The notes under the pieces: generated by a model | Database searches by the model: none | Seen by the model: only the letters and a program-made list of their open reading frames with translations | What the model was told of the DNA's origin: nothing | Translations under genes and position numbers: made by a program | Assembly: GCA_003169895.1 (NCBI GenBank) | Contig: PNAE01000013.1 | Span: 1-64,000, forward strand | DNA length: 64,000 nucleotides | Direction of reading: 5' to 3' | Origin: Gemmatimonadota bacterium | GTDB lineage: Bacteria; Gemmatimonadota; Gemmatimonadetes; Gemmatimonadales; GWC2-71-9 | In this document: positions 44,762-64,000 of the stretch, piece after piece | Position numbering within the stretch: the stretch's first letter is position 1 | Layout: each line of letters opens with the position of its first letter

Positions 44762-45994
44762 ATGCCGACGCCGTCACTTATCCCGCTGCCACCCCTCACC
44801 GGCGATCCGGTGTCGGTCGGCGATCGCGCCGAGATCTCGATCGGGCCGGAACCGGCGGGCCAGACCGGACTCAACCCGCCCGGCATCGACGTGCACCGCG
44901 CCGAGTTGCAGCGCCGCGACACCGGATGGTGGATTCTCCCGGGACATGCCTCGGTCAAACTCAACGGCAAGCCAGTCGGGGAACCGCTTCGGTTGCGCGA
45001 CCGCGATCAGATCGAGGTGGCGCCCGGCCACGCATACGAGTTCGCCAGCGGCGAAAAGCGCACCCGCCGGATGGAATCGATGGCCGACATGGTCGTCCAT
45101 CCGCGGAAGCGCCGCAACCGGCGGCTCCCCGGACCGGCTCGGAACGTCTCCGTGGCCGCGCTGGCCACCGTAGTCATCGCAGTGTTGCTGGTGGCAGGCG
45201 CCGCCGCGGTCGTCTGGTACGGGACCTTTCGCGCCACCAAATCCATCGTCGTCCTCAACGACCGCCAGGCGACGGAACTCGACAGCCTGCTCATCGTCGC
45301 CTACGACCACGTGGAGCGCGGCGGTACCCTGCTCGAGTTGGGCCTCGGTGACGGCGCCCTGGACGAGTTCGCCCGCGCGGTGAACACCCTCGCGCTGAGC
45401 GACCTGCGCAATCACCCCCAGGTCAAGCCGCGCATCGAAGCACTCGAAGCGTCGGTCGCGAGCATCTACCGCGAACGCAGCCTGAAGGTCCCGGAGAACT
45501 ACGCCAACGCCACCTCGCCGCTCACCGCCGACCAGTTGAAGACTGCTTCACTCTCGGTGACGCAGTTCGCGGCGCAGTTCGCGCTGATGGCCGCGGCCTT
45601 CCAGTCCCGGTTCGGTCATGAAATCGTCGTCTCCGGCCGCGACCATGCCGAGCATGTGGCATTGTACGGGAAGGGTGGCGCGATGGACCTGAGCATCAAG
45701 ACGATGAAGTCCAATGAGGTTGGCTTCATCATCGACCAAGGGCACGCTCGCCATATCCGGGTGAAGGACTTTTCGCAGGACAGCGTCCTGCGGCGGGAGG
45801 TGCAGGCGGCGGTCAAGGCCGGCCTGCTGTTCGAGGCGGGCACCGGATTGCACCTGCACATCGATCGCTTCGCCAACCGGCGCGACCGTTGGACGACGCT
45901 GCGCACTGCGCCATCAGGCGAAACAGCGCGCCAACTCGTCGAGCGTGGGCCGCTGCCGGGGATCACTGCTGAGCGCCGCCGCCAGGCATTCTGA
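44762..45994 (+). CDS. FHA-like / single-TM / M15-peptidase-like protein, copy 1
   Basis: A 410-aa type II-like membrane protein. Residues 15-95 look like a degenerate FHA fold (strand pattern WWILPGHASVKLNGKPVGEP) facing the cytoplasm; a basic stretch RKRRNRRL precedes a single helix at 129-153; a helical linker (160-270) follows, then a periplasmic domain like peptidase M15/DD-peptidase (SGRDHAEHVALYGKGGAMDL at 291-310, GLHLHIDRF at 362-370). Possible zinc ligands are His295/298, Asp309 and His364/366, but the canonical H-x2-G-x-A-x-D has Tyr302 at the His place. Copy 2 is at 51737. ATG 44762 used; TATAGG upstream may be a -10. Its end overlaps the convergent kinase gene by 81 bases. Confidence 0.7.
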   Translation: MPTPSLIPLPPLTGDPVSVGDRAEISIGPEPAGQTGLNPPGIDVHRAELQRRDTGWWILPGHASVKLNGKPVGEPLRLRDRDQIEVAPGHAYEFASGEKRTRRMESMADMVVHPRKRRNRRLPGPARNVSVAALATVVIAVLLVAGAAAVVWYGTFRATKSIVVLNDRQATELDSLLIVAYDHVERGGTLLELGLGDGALDEFARAVNTLALSDLRNHPQVKPRIEALEASVASIYRERSLKVPENYANATSPLTADQLKTASLSVTQFAAQFALMAAAFQSRFGHEIVVSGRDHAEHVALYGKGGAMDLSIKTMKSNEVGFIIDQGHARHIRVKDFSQDSVLRREVQAAVKAGLLFEAGTGLHLHIDRFANRRDRWTTLRTAPSGETARQLVERGPLPGITAERRRQAF

Positions 45995-46645
45995 CGGGTT
46001 CGGGCGGGGACCGCGCTTCGTCCCGCTCGGCGCAGCGGCGGCGCCAGCGATGATCGGAGGATCCCCACGCGCGCTCGAGAGCAGCGCCTGGATGACTGCG
46101 GCCGCGCCGTAGACGTCCACCGACGGGTCCACGCGATCGGTCGCGTTGTGTCGCAGCTCCGGCGCCGACCATGGCGGCGTGCCGATTTCATCCTCTTCCC
46201 ACCCCTGCGGAACCGCCCTCGGCGGATCGCCCCACGCTGCCACACCAAAATCGGCCAGCACGACTGAACCATGGACAAATAGCAGATTTGATGGCTTGAT
46301 ATCGCGGTGGATCACCCCACGCGCATGACAGGCGGCGACCGCCGCGAGCAGGGCCCTCGCGATGTCGAGCCGCTCATCCTCACGCAACGAGCCGTCGGCC
46401 AATCGCTGATCGAGCGAGCCTCCGTCCGCAAACTCCAGCGCGAGGCTCAGCGGGTGCTGATGCACTTCGAGCAGGCGGATCACGCCCGTGGTGCCGGCAA
46501 GGACGGTCAGGACCTGTTGTTCGTTCCGAAGCCGCAGGGCCAGGTCTTCGCGATGCGAGTCTTCCGGCCGCAGCCGCTTGAAGACGCATGCCTCGCCGCG
46601 CGCCGTCCGCCCGCGAGTGATGAGCGAGGACGAAGCCCGGCTCAC
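45914..46645 (-). CDS. Small serine/threonine protein kinase
   Basis: A 243-aa kinase consisting of almost only the catalytic domain. Lys23 (VFKRL), Glu42 of helix C, the catalytic loop HRDIKPSN at 113-120 (Asp115, Lys117, Asn120), DFG at 132-134 and the APE-like SAPE at 160-163 are all present, so it should be active. The glycine loop is shortened (ITRGRTARGE). There is no membrane helix. With two FHA proteins next to it, it is likely to phosphorylate Thr residues read by FHA, as PpkA/Fha1 do in type VI secretion control. It overlaps the FHA gene by 4 bases. Confidence 0.88.
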   Translation of the reverse strand: MSRASSSLITRGRTARGEACVFKRLRPEDSHREDLALRLRNEQQVLTVLAGTTGVIRLLEVHQHPLSLALEFADGGSLDQRLADGSLREDERLDIARALLAAVAACHARGVIHRDIKPSNLLFVHGSVVLADFGVAAWGDPPRAVPQGWEEDEIGTPPWSAPELRHNATDRVDPSVDVYGAAAVIQALLSSARGDPPIIAGAAAAPSGTKRGPRPNPSECLAAALSSDPRQRPTLDELARCFA

Positions 46646-47553
46646 ATCATCAGGAACTTGACTCGCGCCATCCCCGCGAGCGAGAACTCCGCGCCGTCCT
46701 CGAGCGCGCGGTGTTCGCCCCGTTCAAGCAACTCCTCATCCATGTAGGTGCCATTGAGGGAGGAGTCGATCAGGAAGAACCTGCCATTCTTGCGGACAAT
46801 GGCACAGTGATATCGTGAGATGAATGCCGTCGAATCACTGAGGATCAGGTCGTTCCTTTCCTCGGGCCGATCCGATTCGGCGGAGCCGATGCGGAAGATG
46901 GGACCGTCGATAGTATAGATCTTCCCCCGCCCGATGCCGTCGACAATCTCGAGCACCGCCTTCTGGTGCGACGCGTCCGCCTTGCGGCTGAGCAACAGCC
47001 GCCGGTGCCGCGCTGCGAGCTGCTTCGATCCCGCGCCGAGCACCAGCGCCAGCAGCAGCACACTGCCGGCAACGATGAACAGCGCGGTGCGCACCTGCTG
47101 GGCCTTGGTGAGTCCGCCGATCCTGTCGCGAAAGGCGAGCGCGCGCTGATTGTCCGGTTGTGCGGCCAGGATGGCGGTCACCACGCGCCGCGCGGTGACA
47201 AGGTCGCGCGCTTGAATGGCACGCTGCACGGCAGCAAGCTTCTGATCAATCGCATCGCCGGCCTTGCGTACGGAATCGGACTTGACCGCGGCATCGTAAT
47301 CGGCGACGGCCGCGTGATAGCCCGCGTCGACGACCGAGTCACCCATTCCCTCGAGCTGCATCCGCTTCCAGCAGTCGGTGCGATCGCGGATGTTCTGCAG
47401 GGTCCGTTCGGCCGATTGGTCCATCTGCTGGCAGAAGTTGAGCAGCGTCGCCTTCTCCTGATCACGCTGGGCGGTCGCAGCGGCCGGCCTCGGCTGCTGC
47501 GCGGACAGTGTGATCGGAAGCAAGAGGAGCGACAGGGCCGTTCGGTTCAGCAT
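46642..47553 (-). CDS. Signal peptide / TM / FHA-domain protein, copy 1
   Basis: A 303-aa protein with the reverse topology of the M15 protein: signal peptide 1-18 (LSLLLLPITLSAQ), periplasmic helical region with Cys41 and Cys61 and the conserved DRTDCWKRMQLEGMGDSVVD (57-76), one TM helix near 155-174 and a C-terminal FHA domain (200-303) with RIGS (221-224), SRYH (246-249) and NGT (267-269), the phosphothreonine-binding residues. Start at 47553 is chosen for the signal peptide; the frame is open upstream. Copy 2 is at 52869-53786. It would couple kinase signalling in the cytosol to the periplasm. Confidence 0.85.
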   Translation of the reverse strand: MLNRTALSLLLLPITLSAQQPRPAAATAQRDQEKATLLNFCQQMDQSAERTLQNIRDRTDCWKRMQLEGMGDSVVDAGYHAAVADYDAAVKSDSVRKAGDAIDQKLAAVQRAIQARDLVTARRVVTAILAAQPDNQRALAFRDRIGGLTKAQQVRTALFIVAGSVLLLALVLGAGSKQLAARHRRLLLSRKADASHQKAVLEIVDGIGRGKIYTIDGPIFRIGSAESDRPEERNDLILSDSTAFISRYHCAIVRKNGRFFLIDSSLNGTYMDEELLERGEHRALEDGAEFSLAGMARVKFLMM

Positions 47554-47593
47554 GAGCTCAAATCTGACGGCAGCCGGTCCCGGGGTCCAGCGT

Positions 47594-48904
47594 TCACCGA
47601 TGCATCGCAGTCCGCCGCGCCGTCTGGTGGGTGATGTCCTCGGGCTTGCGGGGCGCGATTGATTCGCCGGGCGGCGGTGCCGCTCCGATGGTAGTCGTCG
47701 CGCTCGGTTCCCGGGCGACCGCCACGCTCGTCGGCTCGGCCCACCCAAGACGTGGGACGAGGACCCACACTGATGCGAGGAGCAGCGCGATGAGCAGCGC
47801 AATGGCCGGGCGGTTGCCTCCCGCGTTCGACCCGGTCAGCAACGCGTCGCGGACCGCCGAAGGGAGCGCCGTCGAATCGGCCACTCCCCGGAATGTTGGC
47901 AGGGCCATCAACGGCGGCCGCCACGAAACCGGTCTTGCGATCGCAGTCTGATCGTCCACCCGAAGCGTCGCGATACCCGCAAGCGCGGTGCGGGCCAGGC
48001 CGGCCGGTCCCGGACCGACGACACCGACAGTAAGGTCTCGCGACGCACGAAACTCCCGGGAGATGCCAACGAGCGCCACGACCAGGGCGTTCGGATCGAG
48101 CGGTACCGCAACAGCCGATCCCTCCGGCCCGGCAAGCGTGCGAAGTTCGTCACTCGCCCGATCGGGTGCGAGGCTGATGATCCAGATACGCTGACCGCTC
48201 TGTGCGACGGCGCGCGCGGCTTGGGAGAGGCCGTCGGGCCCGGCAAGCAAGCCGGCAGCCGCCGCCCCCCGGCCGCGGCCGACCTCGTTCGCGCCCGCGG
48301 TAACAAGCAGTACCCCACCTTGCGCCTCGGGCGACGCAGTCACTGCGTCGCGCACACGCTGCGCGGCCAGTGTCATCGCACTATAGAGCGGAGACTGGGC
48401 CTTGGGTTCGGGGCCCGGGGCCGCGTCTACGACCTGCATCGCGCGCGCGGGAGAGTCAAAAACCGCGTCAGCAATCCGTTGCGAGAGGTCCCGAGCATCA
48501 AGACTCGCAACCGCGACCTTGACCGCGGTACTGTCCAGCGATTTCAGCCACGCCTTCAACGCGATGCGGGTGAAGGCAATGCCCTTGCCGGCCATCCCGT
48601 TACCGCCATCGAGCAGGATCAGCAGCCGGGCCGGGATCATCGATGGGTCGGGAACCCGCGCGCCAAGCCCCAAGAGGCGCGCACCGTCCAGGCGAACCGT
48701 CCACGCCCCACCCTCTTGGGCGGAGTCGAGCCGCCCGGCCGCTGCCCGCTCGCCCTGCCCGAGTTCGAGCCGGGTACGCAAGCAGGGTGCATCCGATTCC
48801 ACTGCACACCGGACGAGCTGCAATCGGTCTCGAATACCGGGGCTCTGTCCTGCAGCGGCAGTCACCAGCGTGACCGCACATAGCGTGAGCAGCGCCCTGA
48901 TCAT
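47594..48904 (-). CDS. vWA-like exported protein with C-terminal TM helix
   Basis: A 436-aa protein: signal peptide 1-19 (LVTAAAGQ), a beta region, then from about residue 92 a von Willebrand A-like fold (ARLLILLDGGNGMAGKG with Asp99; ESDAP and later GGVLLVTAGANEVGRG), one TM helix near 365-385 and a 50-residue cytosolic tail. The MIDAS motif D-x-S-x-S reads D-G-G-N-G, so metal binding may be changed or lost. It lies between the FHA gene and a polytopic protein, overlapping the latter by 4 bases. Confidence 0.65.
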   Translation of the reverse strand: MIRALLTLCAVTLVTAAAGQSPGIRDRLQLVRCAVESDAPCLRTRLELGQGERAAAGRLDSAQEGGAWTVRLDGARLLGLGARVPDPSMIPARLLILLDGGNGMAGKGIAFTRIALKAWLKSLDSTAVKVAVASLDARDLSQRIADAVFDSPARAMQVVDAAPGPEPKAQSPLYSAMTLAAQRVRDAVTASPEAQGGVLLVTAGANEVGRGRGAAAAGLLAGPDGLSQAARAVAQSGQRIWIISLAPDRASDELRTLAGPEGSAVAVPLDPNALVVALVGISREFRASRDLTVGVVGPGPAGLARTALAGIATLRVDDQTAIARPVSWRPPLMALPTFRGVADSTALPSAVRDALLTGSNAGGNRPAIALLIALLLASVWVLVPRLGWAEPTSVAVAREPSATTTIGAAPPPGESIAPRKPEDITHQTARRTAMHR

Positions 48905-49731
48905 ACGCGTGGCCGAAGGAGGTTGATACGGTAGCGACTCCGGCCCACCGCAACCGTTGCGCTGGCGGTCAGCCAGCGCGCTTCCCGAATGTGTCGACCA
49001 TCCGCGATGACGCCGCCGGCCGGCGGATAGAGCGCGATGCGTCCATCCCGGCACGCGAGCTTGGCTTCACCGAGCACCAGCGTGCGCTGATCGTACAGCG
49101 GCCATTCCCGCAACGAGAGCAGGCTCGCCTCGCGCCCGCGGTGCGGCAACGCCTCGACAACAGCAGCGGCATGCCACAACTCGGGGCCCCCGAGCGCGAA
49201 GCCGACGGACCCGCCCCACCACAGCAAGGCGACCGCCTGCCACACGTCCGAGGCGCCGGGCAGCGTATAGATCACACCGCTGATTGCGCCGCCAACGGCC
49301 GCGAGCAGGACGCTTTCGCGGAGCCGGCCGCGCGCCGGTCGCGGATCCAGGCATACATTCAGGCAGAGAACCGACGCGGCCGCGGCCAGCGCCCATGCGG
49401 CAGTGCGTTCCAACAAGAACACCCGCGGGCTGGCCGCGGCATGGATGAACAGGAACGGAGATGCCCCGGCCAGCGCCCCGACACCGCCAAGCAGCGAGCC
49501 GGCGATTGCGCTGAACGTCACGTCACCGCGTTGCCGGAATTCCCGAGCGCCGAGAATCGCCGCGCCGACAGCGGCGCCCACGGTCAGGGCTGCGAGCTGG
49601 TCCAGCCGGGTGTAACTGGTGGTGAGTCGCGGCCAGACGCCGAGCAGCAGCCAGCCGCACGCCGCGCCGGCGGTGCCGAAGACCGTCGAAGTAAGGACGC
49701 CTCGGGGCAGCATCCGTGCGGTATTCGTCAT
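48901..49731 (-). CDS. Polytopic membrane protein with C-terminal FHA-like tail
   Basis: A 276-aa protein with about six membrane helices in residues 8-185 (for example SAIAGSLLGGVGALAGASPF) and a soluble C-terminal part (190-276) made of short strands (LVLGEAKLACRDGRIALYPP, ADGRHIREARWLTASATVAV) that may be a degenerate FHA or beta-sandwich without the phospho-binding Arg/Ser pair. I do not recognise a named family. It overlaps its two neighbours by 4 bases each, so it belongs to the same module. Confidence 0.55.
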   Translation of the reverse strand: MTNTARMLPRGVLTSTVFGTAGAACGWLLLGVWPRLTTSYTRLDQLAALTVGAAVGAAILGAREFRQRGDVTFSAIAGSLLGGVGALAGASPFLFIHAAASPRVFLLERTAAWALAAAASVLCLNVCLDPRPARGRLRESVLLAAVGGAISGVIYTLPGASDVWQAVALLWWGGSVGFALGGPELWHAAAVVEALPHRGREASLLSLREWPLYDQRTLVLGEAKLACRDGRIALYPPAGGVIADGRHIREARWLTASATVAVGRSRYRINLLRPRV

Positions 49732-50795
49732 TGGGCCAAGTCATGCACTCTGGCCGCCGCGTCCTTATGGCCCTGTGCCGCCGCCTTGCGGTACCAGACG
49801 AGTGCCTTGGCCTTGTCCTTCGCCATGCCGAGGTGCCCCTTTTCGTAAACCTGTCCGAGCGCGTACTCGGCGTTCGCGAGCCCTGTGTTGGCCGAGCGGG
49901 TGTACCAGTCGAGCGCCACGGCTTGATCCTTCTTGACGCCACGGCCCCGTTCGTAATACAACGCGAGCTGGTACATCGACTCGCCGTCGCCCGCGCGAGC
50001 AGCTTCACCAAACCAGTGCGCGGCGCTGTCATCACTGCGTCCGACGCCAGTGCCCCGCTGGAACAGCAGGCCGACATCCCGCGCAGCTCCAGCACTTCCG
50101 GCACGGGCGGCGCGAGCGCATGATGCGTACGCGCCGCCCCACGCACCGGCTGTCATGGTCTGCTGACAACTCGCTTCGTCAGGATTGCCGCGTTTCAGTG
50201 CGGGCTCCGATGGTGACCGCTGGGTGGCGGCGCCCGGTTTCGATGCCACTGCTTGCTGCTGCTGAAGTGGCGCCAGCCTCGGCGACCACGTGTAATTCTC
50301 GCCTGGCTTCAACTGGACCGTGTCGGTGCGTGGGATGCGGCCCGGCAACTCGGCCCCCAGAACGTGGCGCCCGGGTGCGATGGCCGTGTGACGGCGTGAG
50401 ACCGGTATACCGTCAATGCGCACCGAGGCCGCGCGTGGTAACCCGACCACGGCGATCGATGCGGTCGCGGCGGCGGTCGGTGCCGTCGGCCGGGTCGACG
50501 GAGGTCCGGCGCGCGCCGGCGGTGCGGGCGGAGGCGGTGGAGCGGGCGGAGTTGCGGGCGCGATGGTCGGGGCGACCGGCGGCGGCTGTGCCGCCGGTTG
50601 CGAAGGTAGCGGTACCCCGCGCCGCGGCTCGGAACCGGGTACGATCTCTCCGGTTGGCAGCGTCAGCAGGACGACGGCGAGCGCAACGAGGCCGAGGCCC
50701 GCACCTCCGGCGACGATCCAGTTGCGCGCAGGAAACTGTGGATCAGGTGGAGGTGGCGGTGGATCCACATGCGGCGCGGGCGGCAAGTCGGGCAC
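49728..50795 (-). CDS. Membrane-anchored PEGA and Sel1-repeat protein
   Basis: A 355-aa protein: proline-rich N-terminus, one TM helix at about 27-46 (VAGGAGLGLVALAVVLLTL), a long Pro/Ala linker, a PEGA-like domain at about 113-175 (SIAVVGLPRAASVRIDGIPV) and four or so Sel1/TPR-like repeats at about 235-350 (SMYQLALYYERGRGVKKDQA, AEYALGQVYEKGHLGMAKDK). Such proteins usually mediate protein contacts in the periplasm. First intact gene downstream of the chimeric fabF relic; overlaps the polytopic gene by 4 bases. Confidence 0.75.
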   Translation of the reverse strand: MPDLPPAPHVDPPPPPPDPQFPARNWIVAGGAGLGLVALAVVLLTLPTGEIVPGSEPRRGVPLPSQPAAQPPPVAPTIAPATPPAPPPPPAPPARAGPPSTRPTAPTAAATASIAVVGLPRAASVRIDGIPVSRRHTAIAPGRHVLGAELPGRIPRTDTVQLKPGENYTWSPRLAPLQQQQAVASKPGAATQRSPSEPALKRGNPDEASCQQTMTAGAWGGAYASCARAARAGSAGAARDVGLLFQRGTGVGRSDDSAAHWFGEAARAGDGESMYQLALYYERGRGVKKDQAVALDWYTRSANTGLANAEYALGQVYEKGHLGMAKDKAKALVWYRKAAAQGHKDAAARVHDLAQ

Positions 50796-50840
50796 GGATT
50801 CTCCGGAAGAATGTCAACGAGTCCACACGCAACGGAGCCG

Positions 50841-51314
50841 TTACAGCGCCCGCACCGCCAGTGTCGCGTTGTGGCCGCCGAAGCCGAACGAGTTGGACAG
50901 CGCTACCCGCACGTTGCGCCGGCGCATCACGTTCGGCACGCAATGAAGGTCGCACTCCGAGTCGGGATCATCCTGGTTGATCGTCGGGGGAATCTCGCCG
51001 CGCGATGTCACGAGGAGCGAGATCACCGCCTCGATAGCGCCCGCGGCGCCGAGGGTATGCCCGGTCATCGATTTGGTGGACGCGAACATCAAGTCCCGTG
51101 CGTGCTGGCCAAAGACGGCCTTCACCGCGTTGGTCTCGGCGCCGCGCCGGAGGACGCAGAGGCCGATCAGGCCCGTGGTGGCATGGAGGGCGAGTGCATC
51201 GGCGGCATCGAGGCGGCGGCCTTGGGCCACGCGCTCGGCGATCGGACGGAGGACCCTGTCGCGAATCCGGTCCATCGCCAACGGGGGACTCGACGACTCA
51301 AGTGGAGGCGCCAT
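50841..51314 (-). pseudogene. Chimera of mqnE 5' end and fabF 3' end
   Basis: A 157-codon open frame made of two unrelated pieces. Residues 1-52 ([20 protein letters not shown], then [20 protein letters not shown]) closely match the first 52 residues of MqnE at 44634. Residues 60-157 are the end of beta-ketoacyl-ACP synthase [10 protein letters not shown] with Lys81 and His86, and [10 protein letters not shown] with His148. The FabF catalytic Cys and most of its thiolase fold are absent, and the radical SAM site of MqnE is absent, so no activity is expected. The join lies near 51140-51160. It is a by-product of the duplication of the mqnE/M15 promoter region. Confidence 0.8.
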
Positions 51315-51372
51315 GGCGGGAATTTACCGGTACCGGGGCCTTGAGGGTACCGGCCGAGCCCGCCCGAGGCAC

Positions 51373-51604
51373 CTGCTCAGCGGAGTTGGTGCAACTGGTC
51401 CAGGCCGGGACGGCGCCCGGATCCTCGTTGAGCGCCGCTGCGATCCATTCGGACACCACCCTGTCGCGGACCGAGCCAGGCCAGGACCCGCTCCGTTGCA
51501 TTCAACGTTCCAGCGTCGAGGCAGTCGTCGAGTGAGCCACCGTCAGCCCATTCCAGCATCAGGGCCAGTGGCCGAAGGCGCACGCCCAGCAACACCACTC
51601 TGTC
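51373..51604 (-). pseudogene. Degraded Ser/Thr kinase remnant
   Basis: Two pieces in different frames resemble the kinase at 45914-46645: LRPLALMLEWADGGSLDDCL (about 51467-51604) matches its PLSLALEFADGGSLDQ region, and SEWIAAALNEDP (down to 51373) matches its C-terminal SECLAAALSSDP. The catalytic loop and DFG are deleted and a frameshift separates the rest. It is the lost kinase of the second module copy. Confidence 0.6.
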
Positions 51605-51736
51605 ATGGAGCGTGGGAAGCGACGGATCAGGTGGTGGCGGTGGTGGATCCCGCCCTGCCGGGCCACTTTCGCCACGCATCCTCCCGGAGTCCGCGGTTCA
51701 GTGGCGAAGAGTGAAGAACAGGGACAGTATAGAACA

Positions 51737-56461: not shown

Positions 56462-56489
56462 GCGGACGTCTCCGGGTCTCGTGAAGTCA

Positions 56490-58103
56490 TCACGAAGGTT
56501 TGCGGACGGTAATCTTCGGGACGGCCGATGGTGCACCCTGAGGTGACACTGGGCCTCGCGGCGGCGGACTGGTTGGCGGCATGGCATCCGGCATCGCGCC
56601 CGCTACGAGACCAAGCCGCCGCTGAAACAGAATGGCACCGCGAACCCGATGCGCCGGCTGGACCTGCGCGCTGAGCCCGGCGATGGTCGCGACGTCCGCC
56701 GGTGTTTCGAAGTTCACGCCGAAGTTGCGCTGCCCCGGAATCTCGCACGCCGCGACCCGCGAGATCGGCCGACCCGGAGCGCCCTCGGCGTTGATGCGCA
56801 GATCCACCTGAAGCTCGTCGCCCACCTGCCACCCCGAGACACCCTGCGGATCGCCGAGGAGCACCAGGCGGTACTCGTGCCGGCCGGCAAGGGACAGTTG
56901 ATTGAACACGAAGGTGATCAGATCGCCGTCGCGCTGTGGATGGCCGGGTGTCGCGACCGCGATATAGAACTGGTCCCCCTGACGATCCAGGAGAAACTTG
57001 ACCGCATCGACGGAACGATTGATCCGGTAGTCGATGTACTTCCCTTCGAGCGCCTCGACCACCCGGCGGATGCGGCGCAGGGTGTCGTCGGCGCGCGCGA
57101 GCGACTGGCGCAAGTCCTCCCGGACGGCGAGCTCCCGCCGGGAAGCCAGCACGCCCCGCTCCTCTTCCAGCAGGTCGTTGTATGTTGCATCTGCGCCGGA
57201 AAGGGTCTGGAAGTACGACTGCGTCGAACTGCTCAGGTCGAGCGCCAGCGCCACCCGGCGACCGAGGCGATCGACTTGCCCAAAAAACCGATCCGGGTCG
57301 ACGGTGGGGTCGCCGGTTTCGGATGCGCACTGATCGAGCGCCAGCACAGCGCGCTCCGTAAACGCGAGCACATCGAGATCGGGTCGGTTGTCCACGCCGC
57401 GCCGGCCAACTTGCTCGGCGTATCGCGCCACGGCGCGATGCAGTTCTCCGAAACTTCCGGCCAGAAGACTGATATCGGACTGCAGGCGCGACCAGCCGGC
57501 ATACAGTTCGCTGTGCGCCATCATGGCCGCGCATGCGGGGATGAAGCGGCTATCGCGCTCGAATGCCAGCGATTCGCTGGCACGGCGGATGCGGCCGATC
57601 ACCAACGCGTGGGCGAGCAGGTCGGCCGGGACACCAAAACGAACGTCATATTGTGGGCGGCGGAATGCGGCCATGGATGGGTTGGCCGGGTCACTCCCAG
57701 CGGTGGTGGGGTCTTCGACCAGCTGTCCGGTGCGCACCACATACACGAACAGTTCCTTGGCGCCGGCCAGGTCGGCCTTGGATGATTCGCCACGCGCAGG
57801 CGCAGCCGGCGCAATGTCCACCGGCTCGCCGGCGCCGGTGACGCCGCGGGCGTGTTGCACGGCGACACTGACGGTCCGGCCGTCGTCGTGCACGTCAAAG
57901 TGCGGATCGTGCGCGCTCAGCCCGCGTTGGTCCGGATCCATCCGCACGCCGGCGCCGACCAGGCCGGTGGCGGGAATGCAATTGCGGAGCAGCCAGCTGA
58001 ACAGGTTGTCCACGTGGCGGTCCTGCGCGCCGAAATGCTCGGGCGTGAGCAGCATGCCTGAGATCCAGTTGACCGACTTGAGGCCGTCTTCGTCATCCGT
58101 CAT
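56490..58103 (-). CDS. tssK: T6SS baseplate protein TssK
   Basis: A 537-aa protein whose N-terminus [20 protein letters not shown] (12-31) is the hallmark of TssK (W-x-x-G-M-x-L-x-P-x-H-F). It continues with a beta-rich shell domain, a helical middle part (about 300-380) and the C-terminal neck/head region, then a Pro-rich tail of about 40 residues. At 537 aa it is roughly 90 longer than common TssK. TssK links the TssEFG wedge to the membrane complex. GAGGAGGG precedes ATG 58103. The stop of the TssG gene is 3 bases into its start. Confidence 0.85.
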
Positions 58104-59020
58104 GCTGCCCTCCTCACCGGCGGTGTCGCAAGATACGCATTGACGCCGAGCAGCGCGGGGCGTTCGGTGCGACCGAGCACGGTCCCCGCCCCGGGTTCGC
58201 CGACCCGCCAACGTTCCGTCACCGACACGGAGAGGTGCGCGGGCAAAATCAACGGATACAGCGCACGCCGCTGTCGCGCCGATTCGGCGGTCCCATGCTG
58301 ACGCCATTCATCCAGCGTCAACGGGCCAAACGTGATCGCGACGCGCGCGTTGCCGATGACACCGCCGCCAAGTACTGCGTCGAACGCCAGGCGGCCATGC
58401 TGCCGCCCAAGACGCACCACGTCCGTTTCAGGCACCCGGACGACGTCCTGGGTGACTCGGACGTCGGCGACCGGGAGAGCAAACATTGCCGCCATCGCCA
58501 CGCGCACCGCTGACTCCGTGCCGCCCAGCGCGTGCAGGCGGGGAACGAGTCGCGCCAGCGCGTGCCAACGTTCCGCGGGCCAGCGTTCCGCCGCGATCGC
58601 GAAGAGATCTTCGAGCCAGCGACGCGCGGTGATCGGTTCATCGGCGTGGAGCGCGAGATAGCCTCCGCCGTGCCGCAGATAGAAGCCCAGCTTCAGCGCG
58701 GGGTTGTCGAAGATGGCAAAGAACCGATCACCGCGAAGTTCGGTGTCGCCCTCATCACGCAGCGGGAACGGCATCAGGTCCATCGCGCCACTGCCGCCGA
58801 CGCGGAGCACGATGCGCGACACCGGCGTGAGCTCGGTGCCGGGCGCCGGGTCCTGAGAAATAACGGCACCCGTCGACTCTCCTGGTCCAGCGCTCTCCAG
58901 TACGACGTGCGCGAAGTCGACTCCCTGGCGCAGCAGGGTAAGCAGTGCCGAATCGACTCGATGCCGCACGCTGCGCCGGATGCCGACCAGATCGGGCATG
59001 ATCACCGGGCGATCAGCCAT
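58100..59020 (-). CDS. tssG: PASTA-TssG fusion, T6SS baseplate protein
   Basis: A 306-aa protein. Residues 8-75 form a PASTA domain (MPDLVG start, then AVISQDPAPGTELTPVSRIV), normally found in extracytoplasmic parts of penicillin-binding proteins and kinases. Residues 85-306 follow the TssG pattern: FPLRDEGDTELRGDRFFAIF, LARLVPRLHALGG, LGRQHGRLAFDAVLGG, and near the end the TssG strand order (ITFGPLTLDEW, LTLDEW-x-Q-H-G, WRVGEPGAGTVLGRTERPAL). Start at 59020 (MADRPVIMPDL). A PASTA domain on a TssG is not a known family architecture to me. It is coupled to TssF by an 8-base overlap. Confidence 0.7.
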   Translation of the reverse strand: MADRPVIMPDLVGIRRSVRHRVDSALLTLLRQGVDFAHVVLESAGPGESTGAVISQDPAPGTELTPVSRIVLRVGGSGAMDLMPFPLRDEGDTELRGDRFFAIFDNPALKLGFYLRHGGGYLALHADEPITARRWLEDLFAIAAERWPAERWHALARLVPRLHALGGTESAVRVAMAAMFALPVADVRVTQDVVRVPETDVVRLGRQHGRLAFDAVLGGGVIGNARVAITFGPLTLDEWRQHGTAESARQRRALYPLILPAHLSVSVTERWRVGEPGAGTVLGRTERPALLGVNAYLATPPVRRAA

Positions 59021-60725
59021 CGGCGACGACCGTGACCGCGACGTCGAAGCCCAGCACGGCACGTTCCTGCAAGTGCCGCTGTAACTGGGCCTCGAGCCTC
59101 GGCAACTCGGCTGCTGCGTCGGCAAAGTCGGCGGCGCTGACGGAGGCGGTAATCGCCTGCCCTTGGCGCGATCGTCCACCGCTGATGGTGGTCACCGGCG
59201 TTACCTCGACACCACGGACCCGCGGCTCGAATGCACGCACCGCGATCTCCGCATCGGCCGCGGTGACGACGCGTTCGCGCGTCCGCACCAATTCGGCGAA
59301 CCGCAGCTTGGCTGGAGCGTACGCTGGCGGTGCCGCGCCGCCGCGCGACGGAACGAGATTCGCCACCTTGGCGGTGACGTTGGCCAGCGGCGCACCGATC
59401 TGGTTCACCGTGCCCGGGTCGATGCCGTTGGCGCTCTCGCCATCACAGTAGAGCAATCGCACCATGGCATAGGTGTCAAAGCGACCAGTGGGATCCTTGG
59501 CGGGGCGCATGTCCAACTGGCGATCGCGGTAGCGCCAGCGTCCGGCTTCAAGCGGCACGTCGAGGATTGCATCAGCCGCGTATGGGGTCCCGCGCTCGCC
59601 GGTGATACCGAGGACGCCCATCAGGAATCGACCCTTCCGTCCCTCCGGTTCGAGCGTCACCACACTGCCCATCCGGTCAAACGGCACCTGCTCGGCGACA
59701 ATCTCCATGTTCGATGCGGTGACCGCGTTGACAGCGATTCGCTGCACCGCGCTCGCCACGCCGGCCAGGCCCGGCGCCAGCGGGACATGTAGCCAGACGA
59801 GCGGCTGGGTCAGGCCTTTCACCTGCTCGGGCGGCAGCAGCGCCGCCAGGCTGGTTCCGATGGCGGCCGGCACACCGCTTCGCCAACGCCGGTCGATCGG
59901 GACCGGCGGAAAGACAAACACCTGTTCCCCGTACAGGCCTCCCGCCAGATCGGCGAGCTTCGCCAGCGCCTCGGCAGCGGCGCCGGGCGCCGACTCATCC
60001 AGCCAGCCGAGGCATCGCACGCCGCCGCGCCCCCGGCGAACGCGCAACGTACCCAGCTCGGTTGCCAGACCTCGAGCGTCGAGGAGATGCCACGGGCTCT
60101 GCTCCAGCGCCCGAGCGATGGGTCCGCCGAGGGGCAACGTATCGAGCATCAAGCCGAGCCCGCTCAGGTGCAACTCATCGGGATCGAACGCGAGATACAG
60201 TGCCGGCGGCGATTCGCCCAACGCGAGCGCGGCCGTGGACGGCATCAGCAGGGTCCCGCCGCGAACCGGGCGCGCACCGGCGACCGTAGTGAGTCGTCCG
60301 GATTCGTACACGGCCGCGAACCGGAGTTCCGTGGGCGCGAGCTCGATGGATTCGTCCGGCACGAAGTCGAACCGTTCACCCGATCGCGCGGTGCCGATGA
60401 CTTCGGTTTCGAGCGAGAGCCGTTCGCGCCGGGCAATACCGGTGAACGCGACGATGGTTTGCGCCGGTTGCGCCAGACGCGGCGGCATGCCGAGGCCGGC
60501 GAGCAGGTCGTCGAGCACGCCGAGCGGAAAGGCCTGTTCTGCCTCGCGGTACAGCCGGCCGATCTGGGTCGCGAAGGCATGAAACAGCGTCGCCAGCACG
60601 GGGTCCGGCTGCGCCTGCGTGCCGTACCGCTGGAGCAGCGCGACGTCGAACTCGCGTCGCAGTTCGGCCGCGATGTCACCGGCGTCGCGCACGGCAGAAC
60701 CCAGGACCGAAGACGTAGTCGCCAT
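59013..60725 (-). CDS. tssF: T6SS baseplate protein TssF
   Basis: A 570-aa baseplate wedge subunit. The N-terminal pattern ELRREFDVALLQRYG, then DPVLATLFHAFATQIGRLYR, then DDLLAGLGMPPRLAQPAQTI corresponds to the TssF/VasA start (E-x-F, D-P-x-x-x-x-L, L-x-P-x-x-x-x-P-x-x). The C-terminal region ends with gp6-like beta strands (FEPRVRGVEVTPVTTI). ATG 60725 overlaps the VgrG stop (TGATG). It would form the 2:1 wedge with TssG, here the PASTA fusion. Confidence 0.8.
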   Translation of the reverse strand: MATTSSVLGSAVRDAGDIAAELRREFDVALLQRYGTQAQPDPVLATLFHAFATQIGRLYREAEQAFPLGVLDDLLAGLGMPPRLAQPAQTIVAFTGIARRERLSLETEVIGTARSGERFDFVPDESIELAPTELRFAAVYESGRLTTVAGARPVRGGTLLMPSTAALALGESPPALYLAFDPDELHLSGLGLMLDTLPLGGPIARALEQSPWHLLDARGLATELGTLRVRRGRGGVRCLGWLDESAPGAAAEALAKLADLAGGLYGEQVFVFPPVPIDRRWRSGVPAAIGTSLAALLPPEQVKGLTQPLVWLHVPLAPGLAGVASAVQRIAVNAVTASNMEIVAEQVPFDRMGSVVTLEPEGRKGRFLMGVLGITGERGTPYAADAILDVPLEAGRWRYRDRQLDMRPAKDPTGRFDTYAMVRLLYCDGESANGIDPGTVNQIGAPLANVTAKVANLVPSRGGAAPPAYAPAKLRFAELVRTRERVVTAADAEIAVRAFEPRVRGVEVTPVTTISGGRSRQGQAITASVSAADFADAAAELPRLEAQLQRHLQERAVLGFDVAVTVVADG

Positions 60726-62644
60726 CACGTCGCCGGCGGCGGCGGGTCTTGATCCGAGTCGAACGGCGGCGTCGCCGCCGGCACGTTGCGCTTGGCCCAA
60801 GTGGTGGCCAGCTCACTGGGGAGTTGCGGCGGCGGGAACACCAGCGGAAGCGCCGGAGGCGTCACCGGCGGATTGAGCTGCACCATGGCGCCGGTGACGA
60901 CCGCCATCGCGCCGCCATCGAAGACGCCCATTTGGCCGCTGAGCCGCGCCGCCTCGACGGTGAGCGAGAGTTTGGAGCCGCCGCCGGTCAGGACGGTAGC
61001 GAAGGAACTGTCGTGCGTAATGGGCCCGTTCGCCGAATGGTCCATGCTGCCGGTCACGATGACTTTCTCGTCGCCGCCGATCTCACGCCGCACGCCGCCG
61101 CTGATCGCTTCGTGGAGCGACGCGGCGCGCAGCTGGATCTGCCCCTTGGCCTCCAGCACGAGATCGCCTTCGGAATGCAGCGTCACACGCGGCGTGCCAT
61201 CGGCCTTGCTCGACATCTGCAGCATGCATTTGCCCTCCGGCGTGTACAGCTCGATCCAGCCGTCGTCGTGCAGGGCAAGGACATTCCCGCTCTTGGTGAC
61301 GATCTGCTTGGGCTCCTGGCCGGCGCAGCCGTCCTTGCCGTTCCACAAACTGCCGAGACAGAGCGGGTGCTCCGGATCACCTTGCGCGAAGTAGATCAGC
61401 ACCTCGTCGCCCGGCTCGGGGACGAAGATGATGCCGCGCTGATTTCCGGCGAAGGGCGTCACCATGCGGGCGAACAGGAAGTGGTCCGCACTGGGGTCCA
61501 TATGGGCCATGCGGACCTTGATGACGCCCAGGGCGACGAGCGCCGGCTCGGTCTCCAGCGCCTCCGCCAGGAATGGGCCTGACGGCACTCGCAGCGGCGG
61601 CCGCTCGACGTTGCTGAAGTTTTTCCACGGGCTGCCGACGAAGCGATTGCGGTACTCGCTCGAGTCCCAGACGTGGGTGAGCTCGACGAGGCCGAACACC
61701 CCCGTGGAACCAGTGAGCGGGAAGTTCGGCGCGTCATCCACCTGCACCGTCTCGCTCAGCCGAAGCCGAAAATCCCGCGATTCTCCCTCGATCACGACGG
61801 CCGTGCCGAGCATGCGTTCGCTTTCCCGCTGCAGCGCGTCGCGGAACACGTCGCGGAACGGCGCGCGGGAATCCGACATCAGCAGATTAGGCTCCGTCTT
61901 GTCGGCGTACTGGGGGGCGATCTGCTTCACGGCTTCGGTCAGTTTGAGGGCCCCCGTGACGACGGGATCCTTCCGCTGGCCGCGAAACCGGTAGTCTGCC
62001 TTCGCGCCCTGCTCGTACACCCCTCCCCGCCAGGTGTGATTGGCGAGGGCGCTGCGCGCGCGCAGCGCGAGAAGCTCCCGGCCCCACGTCAGCACGCGCC
62101 GGTCGGCGTCGTCGAACTCCGAGCGGAGCTGCACGGCGCCATCCCGCTCGACGAGATAGAAACCCGCATCATCGGCCATGCGCCGCGCGAATTCCAGGCG
62201 GGATTCACCGAACATGCGGTAGCCGCCATCGGGGACCTTATACCGCTTCTGGCCCTTGATCTGGAGACCGAGCTGCTGCGCCGCGTTGTCCCACGAGGTC
62301 GGGGCGAACGTCGCGGATCGGTGCCGTTCCATGTTGAGCAGCAGCGGGCTTGACGCCGTGATCTCGAAGCGCGAGCCACCGCCCGCGAGCTGGTGGTCCT
62401 GCGTGCCGCCGGTCATCACCCCTTCGAACAGAACGGCCTTCGCGCTGTCATCCTCGAGGGCGATATCGACCGAGAGCTGGCCGTGAAAATCCTGCAAGCA
62501 GTCGTTGTGGTTGGTATCGAGATCAAAGCGGACCAGACAGCGGTGCGGTTCGCCCAGTCGGGAGACGACCTCAACGTGCTCGATCTCCCGATTGCGGAGC
62601 ACGAGGTGGTCGTTCCCGAGAGCGACCGTGATCAGCACGCTCAT
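60725..62644 (-). CDS. vgrG: VgrG/TssI spike protein
   Basis: A 639-aa spike: gp27-like domain (1-360; SRLEFARRMADDAGFYLVER at 148-167 is typical), gp5 OB-fold (about 372-435; FLFARMVTPFAG then GIIFVPEPGDEVLIYFAQGD) and a repeated beta-helix (440-600, GCAGQEPKQIVTKSGNVLAL). The last about 40 residues are Pro-rich (PPALPLVFPPPQLP) and do not look like a fused toxin. No PAAR or effector gene follows, since the next gene downstream is tssF. ATG 62644, 31 bases after the TssE-like stop. Confidence 0.92.
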   Translation of the reverse strand: MSVLITVALGNDHLVLRNREIEHVEVVSRLGEPHRCLVRFDLDTNHNDCLQDFHGQLSVDIALEDDSAKAVLFEGVMTGGTQDHQLAGGGSRFEITASSPLLLNMERHRSATFAPTSWDNAAQQLGLQIKGQKRYKVPDGGYRMFGESRLEFARRMADDAGFYLVERDGAVQLRSEFDDADRRVLTWGRELLALRARSALANHTWRGGVYEQGAKADYRFRGQRKDPVVTGALKLTEAVKQIAPQYADKTEPNLLMSDSRAPFRDVFRDALQRESERMLGTAVVIEGESRDFRLRLSETVQVDDAPNFPLTGSTGVFGLVELTHVWDSSEYRNRFVGSPWKNFSNVERPPLRVPSGPFLAEALETEPALVALGVIKVRMAHMDPSADHFLFARMVTPFAGNQRGIIFVPEPGDEVLIYFAQGDPEHPLCLGSLWNGKDGCAGQEPKQIVTKSGNVLALHDDGWIELYTPEGKCMLQMSSKADGTPRVTLHSEGDLVLEAKGQIQLRAASLHEAISGGVRREIGGDEKVIVTGSMDHSANGPITHDSSFATVLTGGGSKLSLTVEAARLSGQMGVFDGGAMAVVTGAMVQLNPPVTPPALPLVFPPPQLPSELATTWAKRNVPAATPPFDSDQDPPPPAT

Positions 62645-62675
62645 CGCCCACGCCTCCCGCTCGCCTGGTGGGCCG

Positions 62676-63041
62676 TCAGGTGGTCACCGCAGCGGATACC
62701 GGTCGGCTATCGTCACCGACCAGCAGCGTGACGTCGAACCGGCGCTCACCATACGCCGCGCCGCGAACACTGCGCACCTGCTGCACCCGGGCCCAGGTCA
62801 CGCCCAGATGGCGAAGCGCCTGGTTCAGCGCATCGGCCAGCGACGCCTGGTCCTCCACGTCGGCGTTGACGCCGAGAAAACGCTCGTGCAGTCCAAACCA
62901 GGTCGCGTGCGGCCAGTTGCCGCTGGTGGTCGCCACCATCGCCTGGATCAGGCGAAGCAGCGACTCCGACCCCTCAGCTCGCGCGAGCTGGCCGTCGGAT
63001 GTGATGCGGAGCGGCAGGGCCAGCGCGCGCACTTCCTCCAT
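62676..63041 (-). CDS. TssE/gp25-like baseplate protein
   Basis: A 121-aa protein with the GPW/gp25 layout: LPLRITSDGQLARAEGSESL (9-28), a helix, LIQAMVATTSGNWPHATWFG (31-50) and a C-terminal beta part. The gp25/TssE hallmark E-x-R is not seen, and the glycine-Glu core is weak, so assignment rests on length, the I-x-x-D-G-x-L start and position between Hcp and VgrG. In a T6SS baseplate TssE nucleates the sheath. It is 6 bases after hcp. Confidence 0.55.
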   Translation of the reverse strand: MEEVRALALPLRITSDGQLARAEGSESLLRLIQAMVATTSGNWPHATWFGLHERFLGVNADVEDQASLADALNQALRHLGVTWARVQQVRSVRGAAYGERRFDVTLLVGDDSRPVSAAVTT

Positions 63042-63047
63042 GCGGCG

Positions 63048-63527
63048 CTACTTGGTGAACTTGTGCTTCGAGACGTTGGTCTCGTCGAGCACGGTGGCCA
63101 GTTCCAGGTAAAGCAGATTGGTGAAGCTGCTCGACGCCGTGGCGTTCGCGGCGATCTCCCCCATGCCGCCACCACCCATCGGCGGCATCGACACCTTCGG
63201 GTTGCTGAACTGGAACACCGAGATCCAACCCATGAACTCAATGTTAGCCAGCACCTTGTCGCTGTCATCGAGATAGTAGGTAATCGACACTTTGTGCAGC
63301 GGATCCTTGCTCTCCGTTGCCATCTTCCACAGTTCGATCTGGCTCGCCTGCGAAAGGTTGTCGATGTGCGCCGCATCCACCCAGACGTACGCCCGCCCGG
63401 CCAGTGACTCGCCGACACGCCGGCCGACGTTGTTCGCCGCACGGCTGAGGGCGTACTTGACCTCCATCGGGAAACACTTGATGCTGTCGATCTCGAGCAT
63501 CACCCGCTTGTACGTTGCGCCTGCCAT
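63048..63527 (-). CDS. hcp: Hcp-like tail-tube protein (TssD)
   Basis: A 159-aa tube subunit. YKRVMLEIDSIKCFPMEVKY starts the beta barrel; LHKVSITYYLDDSDKVLANI and FMGWISVFQFS carry the middle strands as in Bacteroidetes-type TssD; a Gly-rich loop (PPMGGGGMGE) precedes the last strands, which end TNLLYLELATVLDE. GGAGGCGGC lies before the ATG. It forms the inner tube whose tip is VgrG. Confidence 0.75.
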   Translation of the reverse strand: MAGATYKRVMLEIDSIKCFPMEVKYALSRAANNVGRRVGESLAGRAYVWVDAAHIDNLSQASQIELWKMATESKDPLHKVSITYYLDDSDKVLANIEFMGWISVFQFSNPKVSMPPMGGGGMGEIAANATASSSFTNLLYLELATVLDETNVSKHKFTK

Positions 63528-63578
63528 GCCGCCTCCTCGAACAGTAGAGAATGAGTGCTGCCAACCCTGCCCTGACCG

Positions 63579-63896
63579 CTAACGACCGAACAACCGTCCC
63601 AGCCGATGCATCAACCCGGGTGCCGGCGGCGCCGTTTCAGGCGTCGCGGCGACAGGAGGCGCGGCGGGCTCGTCGGCGGCCGCCCCTTCGCGCTCGACAA
63701 ATACCGGATCGCGTTCCCCGGCGTCGGCGGGCCGCCCGCGGGCGCTGATATTGATCCGCGACATTCTCGTCTTGTCGCCGCGGGCAAGATGGCCGTCTGC
63801 GGCAAGGTTCCGATCCACGCTGATCTGGTTGCGTTCGTGGCTCGTAAAGCGAAGATCCGCCGGCTTCGCTTCGTCGTCCGCCCCGGACTCGGGCAT
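63579..63896 (-). CDS. Small hydrophilic protein of the T6SS cluster, unknown
   Basis: A 105-aa protein, acidic N-terminus (DDEAKPADLRFTSHERNQIS), a middle stretch SVDRNLAADGHLARGDKTRM and a Pro/Ala-rich linker ending LMHRLGRLFGR, a possible amphipathic tail. No family is recognised. It starts on the TGATG overlap with the upstream gene, 51 bases before hcp, so it is probably a minor tube, baseplate or chaperone part of the system. Confidence 0.55.
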   Translation of the reverse strand: MPESGADDEAKPADLRFTSHERNQISVDRNLAADGHLARGDKTRMSRINISARGRPADAGERDPVFVEREGAAADEPAAPPVAATPETAPPAPGLMHRLGRLFGR

Positions 63897-64000
63897 CAAC
63901 CCTCTTTCTTCGCCGCCGAAGGGAACCTCGGCGTATCGATCGTCAGGTTGAACGTTTCGGCCGGCCCGACCGGAAGCACTTCAAGGCCAATGTCGAGCAC
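63896..64000 (-). CDS. C-terminal end of an upstream T6SS gene (runs off right edge)
   Basis: The last 34 codons of a gene entering from the right edge, ending FNLTIDTPRFPSAAKKEG before TGA. Strand-rich and followed by a basic tail, it could be the end of a sheath or sheath-linked protein (TssC is expected here), but the fragment is too short to name. It overlaps the next gene by 1-3 bases. Confidence 0.55.
   Translation of the reverse strand: MLDIGLEVLPVGPAETFNLTIDTPRFPSAAKKEG

Follow-up and report, generated by a model that had tools for sequence, protein, structure and literature searches.

How is a contractile injection machine held at the cell envelope when the known membrane anchors are not encoded with it? 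This question is raised by the right-hand part of a 64,000-nucleotide stretch of Gemmatimonadota DNA (PNAE01000013.1; hereafter the window, bases 1-64000 of the 246,564-bp contig 11 of a 3.42-Mb genome that is 98% complete), where the tail genes of a type VI secretion system (T6SS)-like machine stand beside a set of membrane proteins with signalling domains. Two T6SS membrane complexes have been described, TssJLM and TssNQOPR, and an inner-membrane anchor is mentioned for T6SSiv (PMC12210884). We favour, with moderate confidence, the reading that this locus belongs to a distinct T6SS lineage, so far found in Gemmatimonadota only, whose envelope anchor is a co-inherited set of inner-membrane proteins rather than TssJLM or a recognisable TssNQOPR complex. 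It may represent a new way to mount and trigger a contractile injection machine, using membrane proteins built from signalling domains.

A type VI-like tail beside a membrane module

The locus is a real type VI-like contractile system. A single minus-strand run (contig positions 53786-65727) encodes a ClpB/ClpV ATPase, TssK, TssG, TssF, VgrG, a TssE-like protein, an Hcp-like protein, a small conserved protein, TssC and TssB. Extension to the right, as proposed in an initial annotation made from the sequence alone, reached both sheath genes, which directly follow: TssC (63896-65260; PF17541, E=6e-19), with its 3' end in the window (63896..64000, minus strand), and TssB past the window edge (65257-65727; PF05591, E=9e-4, under its cut-off). 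The sheath is thus of the two-part TssB/TssC type by Pfam and hhalign. The baseplate proteins TssK, TssF and TssG were found together with VgrG and PAAR (Pfam, TIGR models and hhalign). TssK (56490..58103, minus strand) was recognised by hhalign and by TIGR03353 (E=2e-8, under cut-off); its N-terminal part is homologous to TssK of T6SSi and T6SSiii, the resemblance ending at about residue 279-303, and the C-terminal ~220 amino acids are matchless in hhalign. TssG (58100..59020, minus strand) matches PF06996 (E=1e-6) and begins with a PASTA-like stretch (PF03793, E=4e-6), which is odd in a cytosolic baseplate protein. TssF, a gpJ-like baseplate protein (59013..60725, minus strand), had no match in the Pfam search and was assigned through hhalign (84% to T6SSiii TssF) and a PDB profile match to the baseplate J-like 9gtp (E=9e-4). 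VgrG (60725..62644, minus strand) matches PF04717 (E=4e-16) and TIGR01646 (E=6e-12, under cut-off).

The remaining tail genes are less clear. The initial annotation had named Hcp and TssE in the same run as VgrG, TssF, TssG, TssK and the ATPase; the latter five stood, and the TssE-like (62676..63041, minus strand) and Hcp-like (63048..63527, minus strand) proteins were assigned solely from their position and size, with profile tests negative for both (hhalign 7.7% for the latter against T6SSiii Hcp). The ATPase (53786..56461, minus strand), a TssH candidate, had been called ClpV; it is of ClpB/ClpV type, but the ClpB model outscores the ClpV model (898 vs 697 bits, both under cut-off). Its gene is found in 16/18 fetched systems, many of which lie on fragmentary contigs and some of which are closely related. 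Between TssC and Hcp lies a conserved protein of 105 amino acids (63579..63896, minus strand), free of transmembrane (TM) segments and found in 12/18 systems.

Six families stand beside the tail: a protein with signal peptide, TM segment and FHA domain (SP-TM-FHA), a small Ser/Thr kinase, an FHA-like-TM-M15-like protein, a polytopic protein (poly), a vWA protein with a cytosolic tail and a PEGA/Sel1 protein. As initially annotated, two SP-TM-FHA and two plus-strand FHA-like-TM-M15-like proteins, the kinase, and the vWA, polytopic and PEGA/Sel1 proteins are all there (Pfam, alignments and models). Signal peptides were read by eye and TM segments taken from a hydrophobicity scan only. FHA1 (52869..53786, minus strand) consists of a signal peptide, a helical part, a TM segment (residues 160-178) and a cytosolic FHA domain (Pfam FHA, E=7e-11; TIGR03354 TagH FHA region, E=9e-13, under cut-off). 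Of the FHA residues that bind phosphothreonine, SRxHC and NGT show no variation across the 11 rows of the family alignment, and the R of RIG is conserved in 10/11. The kinase motifs HRDxKPxN and DFG or DLG are intact in 8/9 rows, the ninth being a truncated open reading frame. By these motifs the kinase is of the active type and the FHA domains are of the phosphothreonine-binding type; phosphorylation itself is predicted.

M15B (51737..52888, plus strand) begins with an FHA-like domain, followed by a TM segment (131-149), helices and an M15-like domain (alignment and TM scan). Its first 100 residues form an FHA fold in the model (mean predicted local distance difference test score (pLDDT) 71.4; Z 15.9, root-mean-square deviation (rmsd) 1.6 over 94 residues to EmbR). 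The model of full-form poly, made for a protein from a Longimicrobium metagenome-assembled genome (6 sequences, mean pLDDT 68.8), has six helices between a ubiquitin-like domain at the N-terminus and an FHA-like one at the C-terminus. The top fold match of the N-domain is 7b9s_5, a chain of the ESX-5 pore complex (Z 9.9, rmsd 2.4, 87 residues) and presumably EccD5; the EccD5 ubiquitin-like domain 7b7j gave Z 9.3, and both are tied with many other ubiquitin-like domains. Equally, the C-domain matches FHA domains at Z 9.8, tied with other members of the FHA fold. The vWA family combines a vWA domain, a TM segment and a cytosolic tail (PF00092, E=8e-8 on vWA2, the copy outside the window); eight rows have the tail motif [AP]PRx[PR]xD[VI]T, and its Thr is invariant in another alignment of 8 rows. 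The full form of the PEGA/Sel1 protein has a zinc ribbon and, by our own reading, kinase N-lobe-like pieces before the TM segment. Four module families are thus predicted to span the membrane once, with part of the protein in the periplasm, while a further one, poly, is polytopic. The initial proposal of paired proteins of opposite topology with cytosolic FHA-like domains agrees with this prediction, as the predicted topology fits opposite-facing inner-membrane proteins with their FHA folds on the cytosolic side.

It had also been suggested that an M15 domain could open peptidoglycan, and this is not supported by the sequence comparisons. The domain is well conserved within the family (GxDHxEH...AxD...GTGxHLHxDRF, with H292, H295, D306, H361, H363 and D365 invariant in the alignment). 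No M15 model was matched at E<=5 when the C-terminal pieces of 10 family members were searched against Pfam, the sole match below 1e-3 being YscD_ppl_3rd (E=1.5e-5, 1 member). A PF08291 search of 41 genomes gave 0 matches in the own genome, hhalign against the M15_3 stretches of the relatives' 15 loci gave 0.4%, and a PDB profile search of the M15-like part lent no M15 support. The fold search with the M15B model returned FHA entries throughout and so addressed its N-domain only. M15 peptidases use a His/Asp/His zinc site and a catalytic acid, and no acidic residue stands at the expected place of the latter in this domain. M15 peptidase identity was rejected as lacking support from the profile tests.

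Absence of TssJLM and co-inheritance of the module

The initial annotation saw no TssJ, TssL or TssM near the tail genes, and this holds for the whole genome: no Pfam match to TssM (PF06744), TssL (PF09850) or TssJ (PF12790) was found, with E. coli controls positive each time. TssL was searched in the own genome only. Among the 10 genomes positive for TssK of the locus type, TssJ was found in 0/10 by profile search and TssM in 1/10 (G272), where it sits on a different contig, next to a TssL and two further TssK-like genes. TssM occurs in 30/296 Gemmatimonadota genomes, which indicates that T6SSi exists in the phylum separately. Separate T6SSi-type loci were indeed seen on other Gemmatimonadota contigs (L068, L092, L093 and L094), with TssM in all four, TssL in L068, L092 and L094, and two TssK-like genes each in L068, L092 and L093. 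The TssN model PF17555 gave 0/10 genomes, but its positive control was silent too. Neither poly nor its ubiquitin-like domain alone showed hhalign similarity to TssN (5 TssN sequences). At such distance hhalign is low-powered, since T6SSi against T6SSiii gave 3.3% for TssC, 1.7% for TssF and 0.1% for Hcp.

TssK of the locus type was found in 10/298 Gemmatimonadota genomes by tblastn, and two TssK peptide patterns run over 84,980 GTDB species returned 12 loci, all Gemmatimonadota by title and Longimicrobium included. M15B and poly2, the other poly copy, had no matches in plasmids. The phylum restriction rests on these two patterns, one tblastn and the plasmid searches, by which distant relatives elsewhere could be missed. 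The membrane families follow TssK closely. The M15 family matches 105/296 genomes at E<=1e-3, of which 12 match over most of its length (E<1e-60) and the other 93 in the N-terminal FHA-bearing part (best 7e-14); these 12 are all 10 TssK-positive genomes plus G118 and G242 (Fisher test, 10/10 vs 2/286, p=5e-17, uncorrected for relatedness). For vWA, 79/296 genomes match, 12 at E<1e-70 (all 10 TssK-positive plus G118 and G273) and the remainder around the vWA domain (best 5e-13). Poly matches 13/296, 11 of them at E<1e-40, namely 9/10 TssK-positive genomes plus G118 and G273; in the exception, G167, the contig begins inside vWA. There are three further carriers (G118, G242 and G273), and G118 and G242 have this system's TssC. 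A co-occurrence with TssK, suggested as a check in the initial annotation, is thus seen, M15 and vWA being in 10/10 carriers and M15, vWA and poly otherwise almost absent from the sampled phylum.

All six families are present at 7/7 loci on long single contigs (G000, G141, G032, G250, G031, G111 and G036). Over the 18 systems, M15 was counted in 17, FHA in 16, vWA in 15, kinase in 14, poly in 13 and PEGA in 11 (some PEGA counts being short forms without the Sel1 part), compared with 16 each for TssK and TssC. Absence of these genes from related T6SS loci, or their presence apart from them, had been named beforehand as evidence against the link; the complete long-contig loci speak against the former, and tail-less copies of the module do exist (see below).

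Gene order links the module to the tail in relatives. In G032, G111 and G036 it runs poly-vWA-TssB-TssC-Hcp-TssE-VgrG-TssF-TssG-TssK-ClpV-FHA-kinase, with M15 convergent at the end. The two halves of this order are swapped in G250, with M15 on the same strand, and in G031 TssK and ClpV are ~9.5 kb apart and M15 stands before poly. Poly-vWA directly precedes TssB in 7 relatives (G032, G250, G031, G111, G036, G272 and G118), and in G031 poly and vWA form one 803-residue frame (G031:C14 69088-71499; single assembly). Among Longimicrobium-type loci, the ClpV between TssK and FHA is missing in G272 (G272:C84 3438-3665) and apparently partial in L050 (1099-2175). The missing TssJLM together with this strongly linked membrane set supports the alternative anchor that had been considered possible in the initial annotation.

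Relation to known systems and the proposed anchor

By hhalign probability (T6SSiii/T6SSi), TssC (99.0/0.8), TssF (84.2/0.4) and TssB (96.4/93.4) are nearest to T6SSiii, while TssK (94.2/98.7), through its N-terminal part, is nearer to T6SSi. In an unrooted TssC tree, from which the Leisingera TssC piece was left out, the Gemmatimonadota rows cluster among themselves (85/91, not starred), and the 5 sampled T6SSiii rows lie on one side of a branch (98/99) that excludes them. The sheath lies outside the sampled T6SSiii group. Rooting with T4 gp18 and P2 FI was rejected and no root is claimed, because this outgroup was non-monophyletic and long-branched. A tblastn search of 72,556 plasmids with TssC returned 9 records, all from Bacteroidota genera by organism name, and each of the five examined includes a TssN-family gene.

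The Bacteroidota T6SSiii likewise has no TssJLM, its membrane complex being TssNQOPR; PMC10781749 describes TssN as a TM bundle with a ubiquitin-like domain resembling EccD (7B9F), which contacts TssK, and places a vWA domain in TssR. The Gemmatimonadota system shares with it a TM bundle with a ubiquitin-like cytosolic domain, a vWA envelope protein and a phylum-restricted membrane set. In contrast, no sequence relation between the two membrane sets was found (small sets), poly combines an N-terminal ubiquitin-like domain and six TM helices with an FHA-like domain, and kinase, FHA, PEGA/Sel1 and M15-like proteins belong to the Gemmatimonadota set. With the proteobacterial T6SSi that uses PpkA/Fha, the locus shares TssB, TssC, TssG, TssK, VgrG and PAAR as well as a kinase and FHA proteins. 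Unlike T6SSi, it has no TssJLM, its FHA domains are borne on signal-peptide-TM proteins, and its TssC matches PF17541 and not PF05943, the model for T6SSi. The accompanying proteins had been considered unusual for a T6SS; this applies to their topology and to the set as a whole, but T6SSi loci too can have a kinase and an FHA protein as neighbours, as in Leisingera (L088), where an M15-family gene is present as well.

Two further likenesses are of architecture only: a ubiquitin-like domain before a TM bundle links poly to EccD of the type VII secretion system (a tied match), and the order FHA-like domain, TM segment and periplasmic part links M15B to SctD (YscD) of the type III secretion system (residues 13-169, TIGR02500, E=0.0028, under cut-off). 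No type III or type VII secretion genes were noticed in the general gene listings around the locus, no dedicated search having been made. T6SSiv and extracellular contractile injection systems (eCIS) are not known to have ClpV or TssK, whereas TssK and ClpB/ClpV genes are present here. No paper on this Gemmatimonadota system was found among open-licence papers, and the variant is apparently undescribed in print. A T6SS typed i4b has been reported on a Gemmatimonadetes plasmid (PMC9113992), a Gemmatimonadota plasmid system also appears in PMC13098142, and passages of PMC10103415 name a T6SS for Gammaproteobacteria only.

From gene content, linkage, predicted topology, domain folds and conservation, we infer that the module proteins may form a complex, dock TssK and be gated by phosphorylation. 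Poly would act as the cytosolic platform that docks TssK, as TssN does in T6SSiii, and the vWA protein together with the M15-like, SP-TM-FHA and PEGA/Sel1 proteins would build the periplasmic part. The C-terminal part of TssK, for which hhalign gave no match, fits this view, since its T6SSi counterpart binds TssL and TssM (PMC6300606). The kinase would then phosphorylate a Thr on a cytosolic tail, the candidate being the conserved Thr of the vWA tail, and binding of the phosphorylated Thr by FHA domains would assemble or license the anchor. In A. tumefaciens the membrane protein TssL is a substrate of the kinase PpkA, and its phosphorylated form is bound by Fha (PMC3953482); by analogy, the vWA-tail Thr is a candidate for a TssL-like phospho-role. 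With kinase and FHA motifs intact and the Thr conserved, phospho-gating is plausible from sequence. It is possible, and we advance it tentatively, that this is a further independent T6SS membrane complex of the Gemmatimonadota, in which phosphothreonine-FHA contacts between opposed inner-membrane proteins build or gate the anchor, a ubiquitin-like/FHA hub replaces TssL/TssM, and a further copy of the module has been retained without its tail. If this is true, the tail was conserved while the anchor was repeatedly reinvented, a ubiquitin-like TM hub with a vWA protein becomes testable as a recurring solution, and phospho-gating may here be built into the anchor itself.

Several observations weigh against this anchor. 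All module proteins scored under 3% against the TssN/O/P/Q/R sets (hhalign, small sets), and no outer-membrane component was identified. The Hcp and TssE candidates went unrecognised in the profile tests, which are weak at such distance because the Hcp proteins of T6SSi and T6SSiii also missed each other. The mismatch of the TssK C-terminus is weak evidence, since the C-termini of T6SSi and T6SSiii TssK mismatch as well. The vWA tail motif is deviant in two rows (L044, PRGPHVDT; G031, PPRRPTDAT) and lost in the G111:C50 copy, and the kinase is missing from the G213 and L042 loci though the contig covers its place, which suggests that a dedicated kinase is not essential everywhere. Each mechanism step is inferred. 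Finally, tail-less copies exist in the window genome, G141 and G111, all of which also have the system, and a fragment in G273. These show that the module can persist apart from an adjacent tail, which supports one functional unit inherited as such and weakens the idea that it serves the neighbouring tail alone.

The six families might instead be a regulatory layer only, akin to PpkA/Fha, the actual anchor being either a strongly diverged TssL/TssM or some other protein that went unrecognised. We regard this as unlikely, even though kinase and FHA proteins do accompany T6SSi in Leisingera, FHA1 matches the TagH FHA region, and a conserved gene absent from the window locus could escape, the relatives having been searched for window-locus families only. 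The sole unassigned gene in the run encodes the TM-free 105-residue protein, the TssM, TssL and TssJ profiles found nothing in the own genome, poly-vWA stands immediately before TssB in the 7 relatives, and four one-TM families with periplasmic parts plus a polytopic fifth exceed what regulation would need. Descent of the module from a very diverged and rearranged TssNQOPR, in which vWA would correspond to TssR and poly to a TssN whose ubiquitin-like domain has shifted to the N-terminus, would explain the shared domain types (ubiquitin-like plus TM bundle, vWA) and the nearness of TssC, TssF and TssB to T6SSiii. It appears improbable, as hhalign found no similarity between poly and TssN or vWA and TssR (small sets), the domains are ordered differently, the number of TM segments is not the same, no TssO/P/Q counterpart was recognised, and TssK is nearer to T6SSi. 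Still less probable is an eCIS or cytoplasmic contractile injection system (CIS) particle, unanchored before firing, for which the module would be the triggering receptor. A known anchor was not found, and firing of a Streptomyces CIS is reported to depend on the membrane protein CisA (PMC12237407), but TssK, TssG and a ClpB/ClpV gene are present and poly-vWA sits among the tail genes.

A second, tail-less module copy and neighbouring genes

A second module set without a tail gene occupies 44762-50795 of the window, and G141 is arranged alike. It comprises M15A (44762..45994, plus strand), built as M15B with a TM segment at 133-151, periplasmic helices and the M15-like domain (alignment, TM scan and tree); a small soluble Ser/Thr kinase with HRDIKPSN and DFG intact (45914..46645, minus strand; PF00069, E=4e-28); FHA2, with the signal peptide, helical part, TM segment and cytosolic FHA domain of its family (46642..47553, minus strand; Pfam FHA, E=5e-13; TM scan and alignment); vWA1, with signal peptide, vWA domain, TM segment and the tail motif APRKPEDIT (47594..48904, minus strand; alignment, profile search and TM scan); poly1 (48901..49731, minus strand); and PEGA1, with TM segment, PEGA-like part and Sel1 repeats (49728..50795, minus strand; Pfam Sel1, E=6e-22, the PEGA match reaching just E=0.013, on a relative). 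vWA1 itself had no match in the Pfam search, its paralogue vWA2 matching. Poly1, placed by alignment to the modelled relative and with 2 strong TM segments, has the C-terminal FHA-like domain but, unlike poly2, no N-terminal ubiquitin-like domain.

Between the two module sets stands a recombination scar (50841..51314, minus strand) that fuses two partial genes, the 5' portion of mqnE (81% DNA identity over 141 bp) and the 3' portion of fabF (98% across 303 bp, compared with fabF at 86845-88119), mqnE and fabF being the flanking genes of the locus. What is probably left of the kinase gene of the first copy lies at 51380..51697 (minus strand; phmmer E=7e-5). An origin of the second module by simple, recent tandem duplication was considered and rejected: the scar fits a fabF/mqnE junction, but its halves differ (98% vs 81%). 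No scar was found in the G141 stretch, and the nearest grouping of FHA2, M15A and poly1 is with an orphan copy from another family, G111:C50 (SH-aLRT 99, 98 and, for poly, 82; the orphan FHA is flagged as a long branch). The unequal halves, the lack of a scar match in G141 and this grouping suggest that the second copy may be older or exchanged. The orphan module itself (L059 7189-11759) stands without tail genes, the vWA domain has been lost from its vWA protein, and no kinase of the module family was found in the set. A 4.5-kb contig of G273 (86% complete) carries a fabF-like gene and, after it, PEGA, poly and vWA; this system's TssC/sheath was not found in G273 in a search of 5 genomes in which G000 and G036 served as positives.

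The genes between vWA2 and TssB in the window genome are effector-like: PAAR, OmpA-like and, by our own reading, LysM-like. The PAAR protein, past the window, matches PF05488 (E=4e-11), and PAAR was found in 6/18 systems. The region at 66659-75118 of contig 11 (L001) is a likely effector island. Besides PAAR it encodes two OmpA-like proteins and a LysM-like peptidoglycan-binding protein, together with two large proteins (68494-70815 and 70834-72336) for which Pfam gave no match. Homologues of the island genes starting at 66659 and 68494 are split into several frames in G141.

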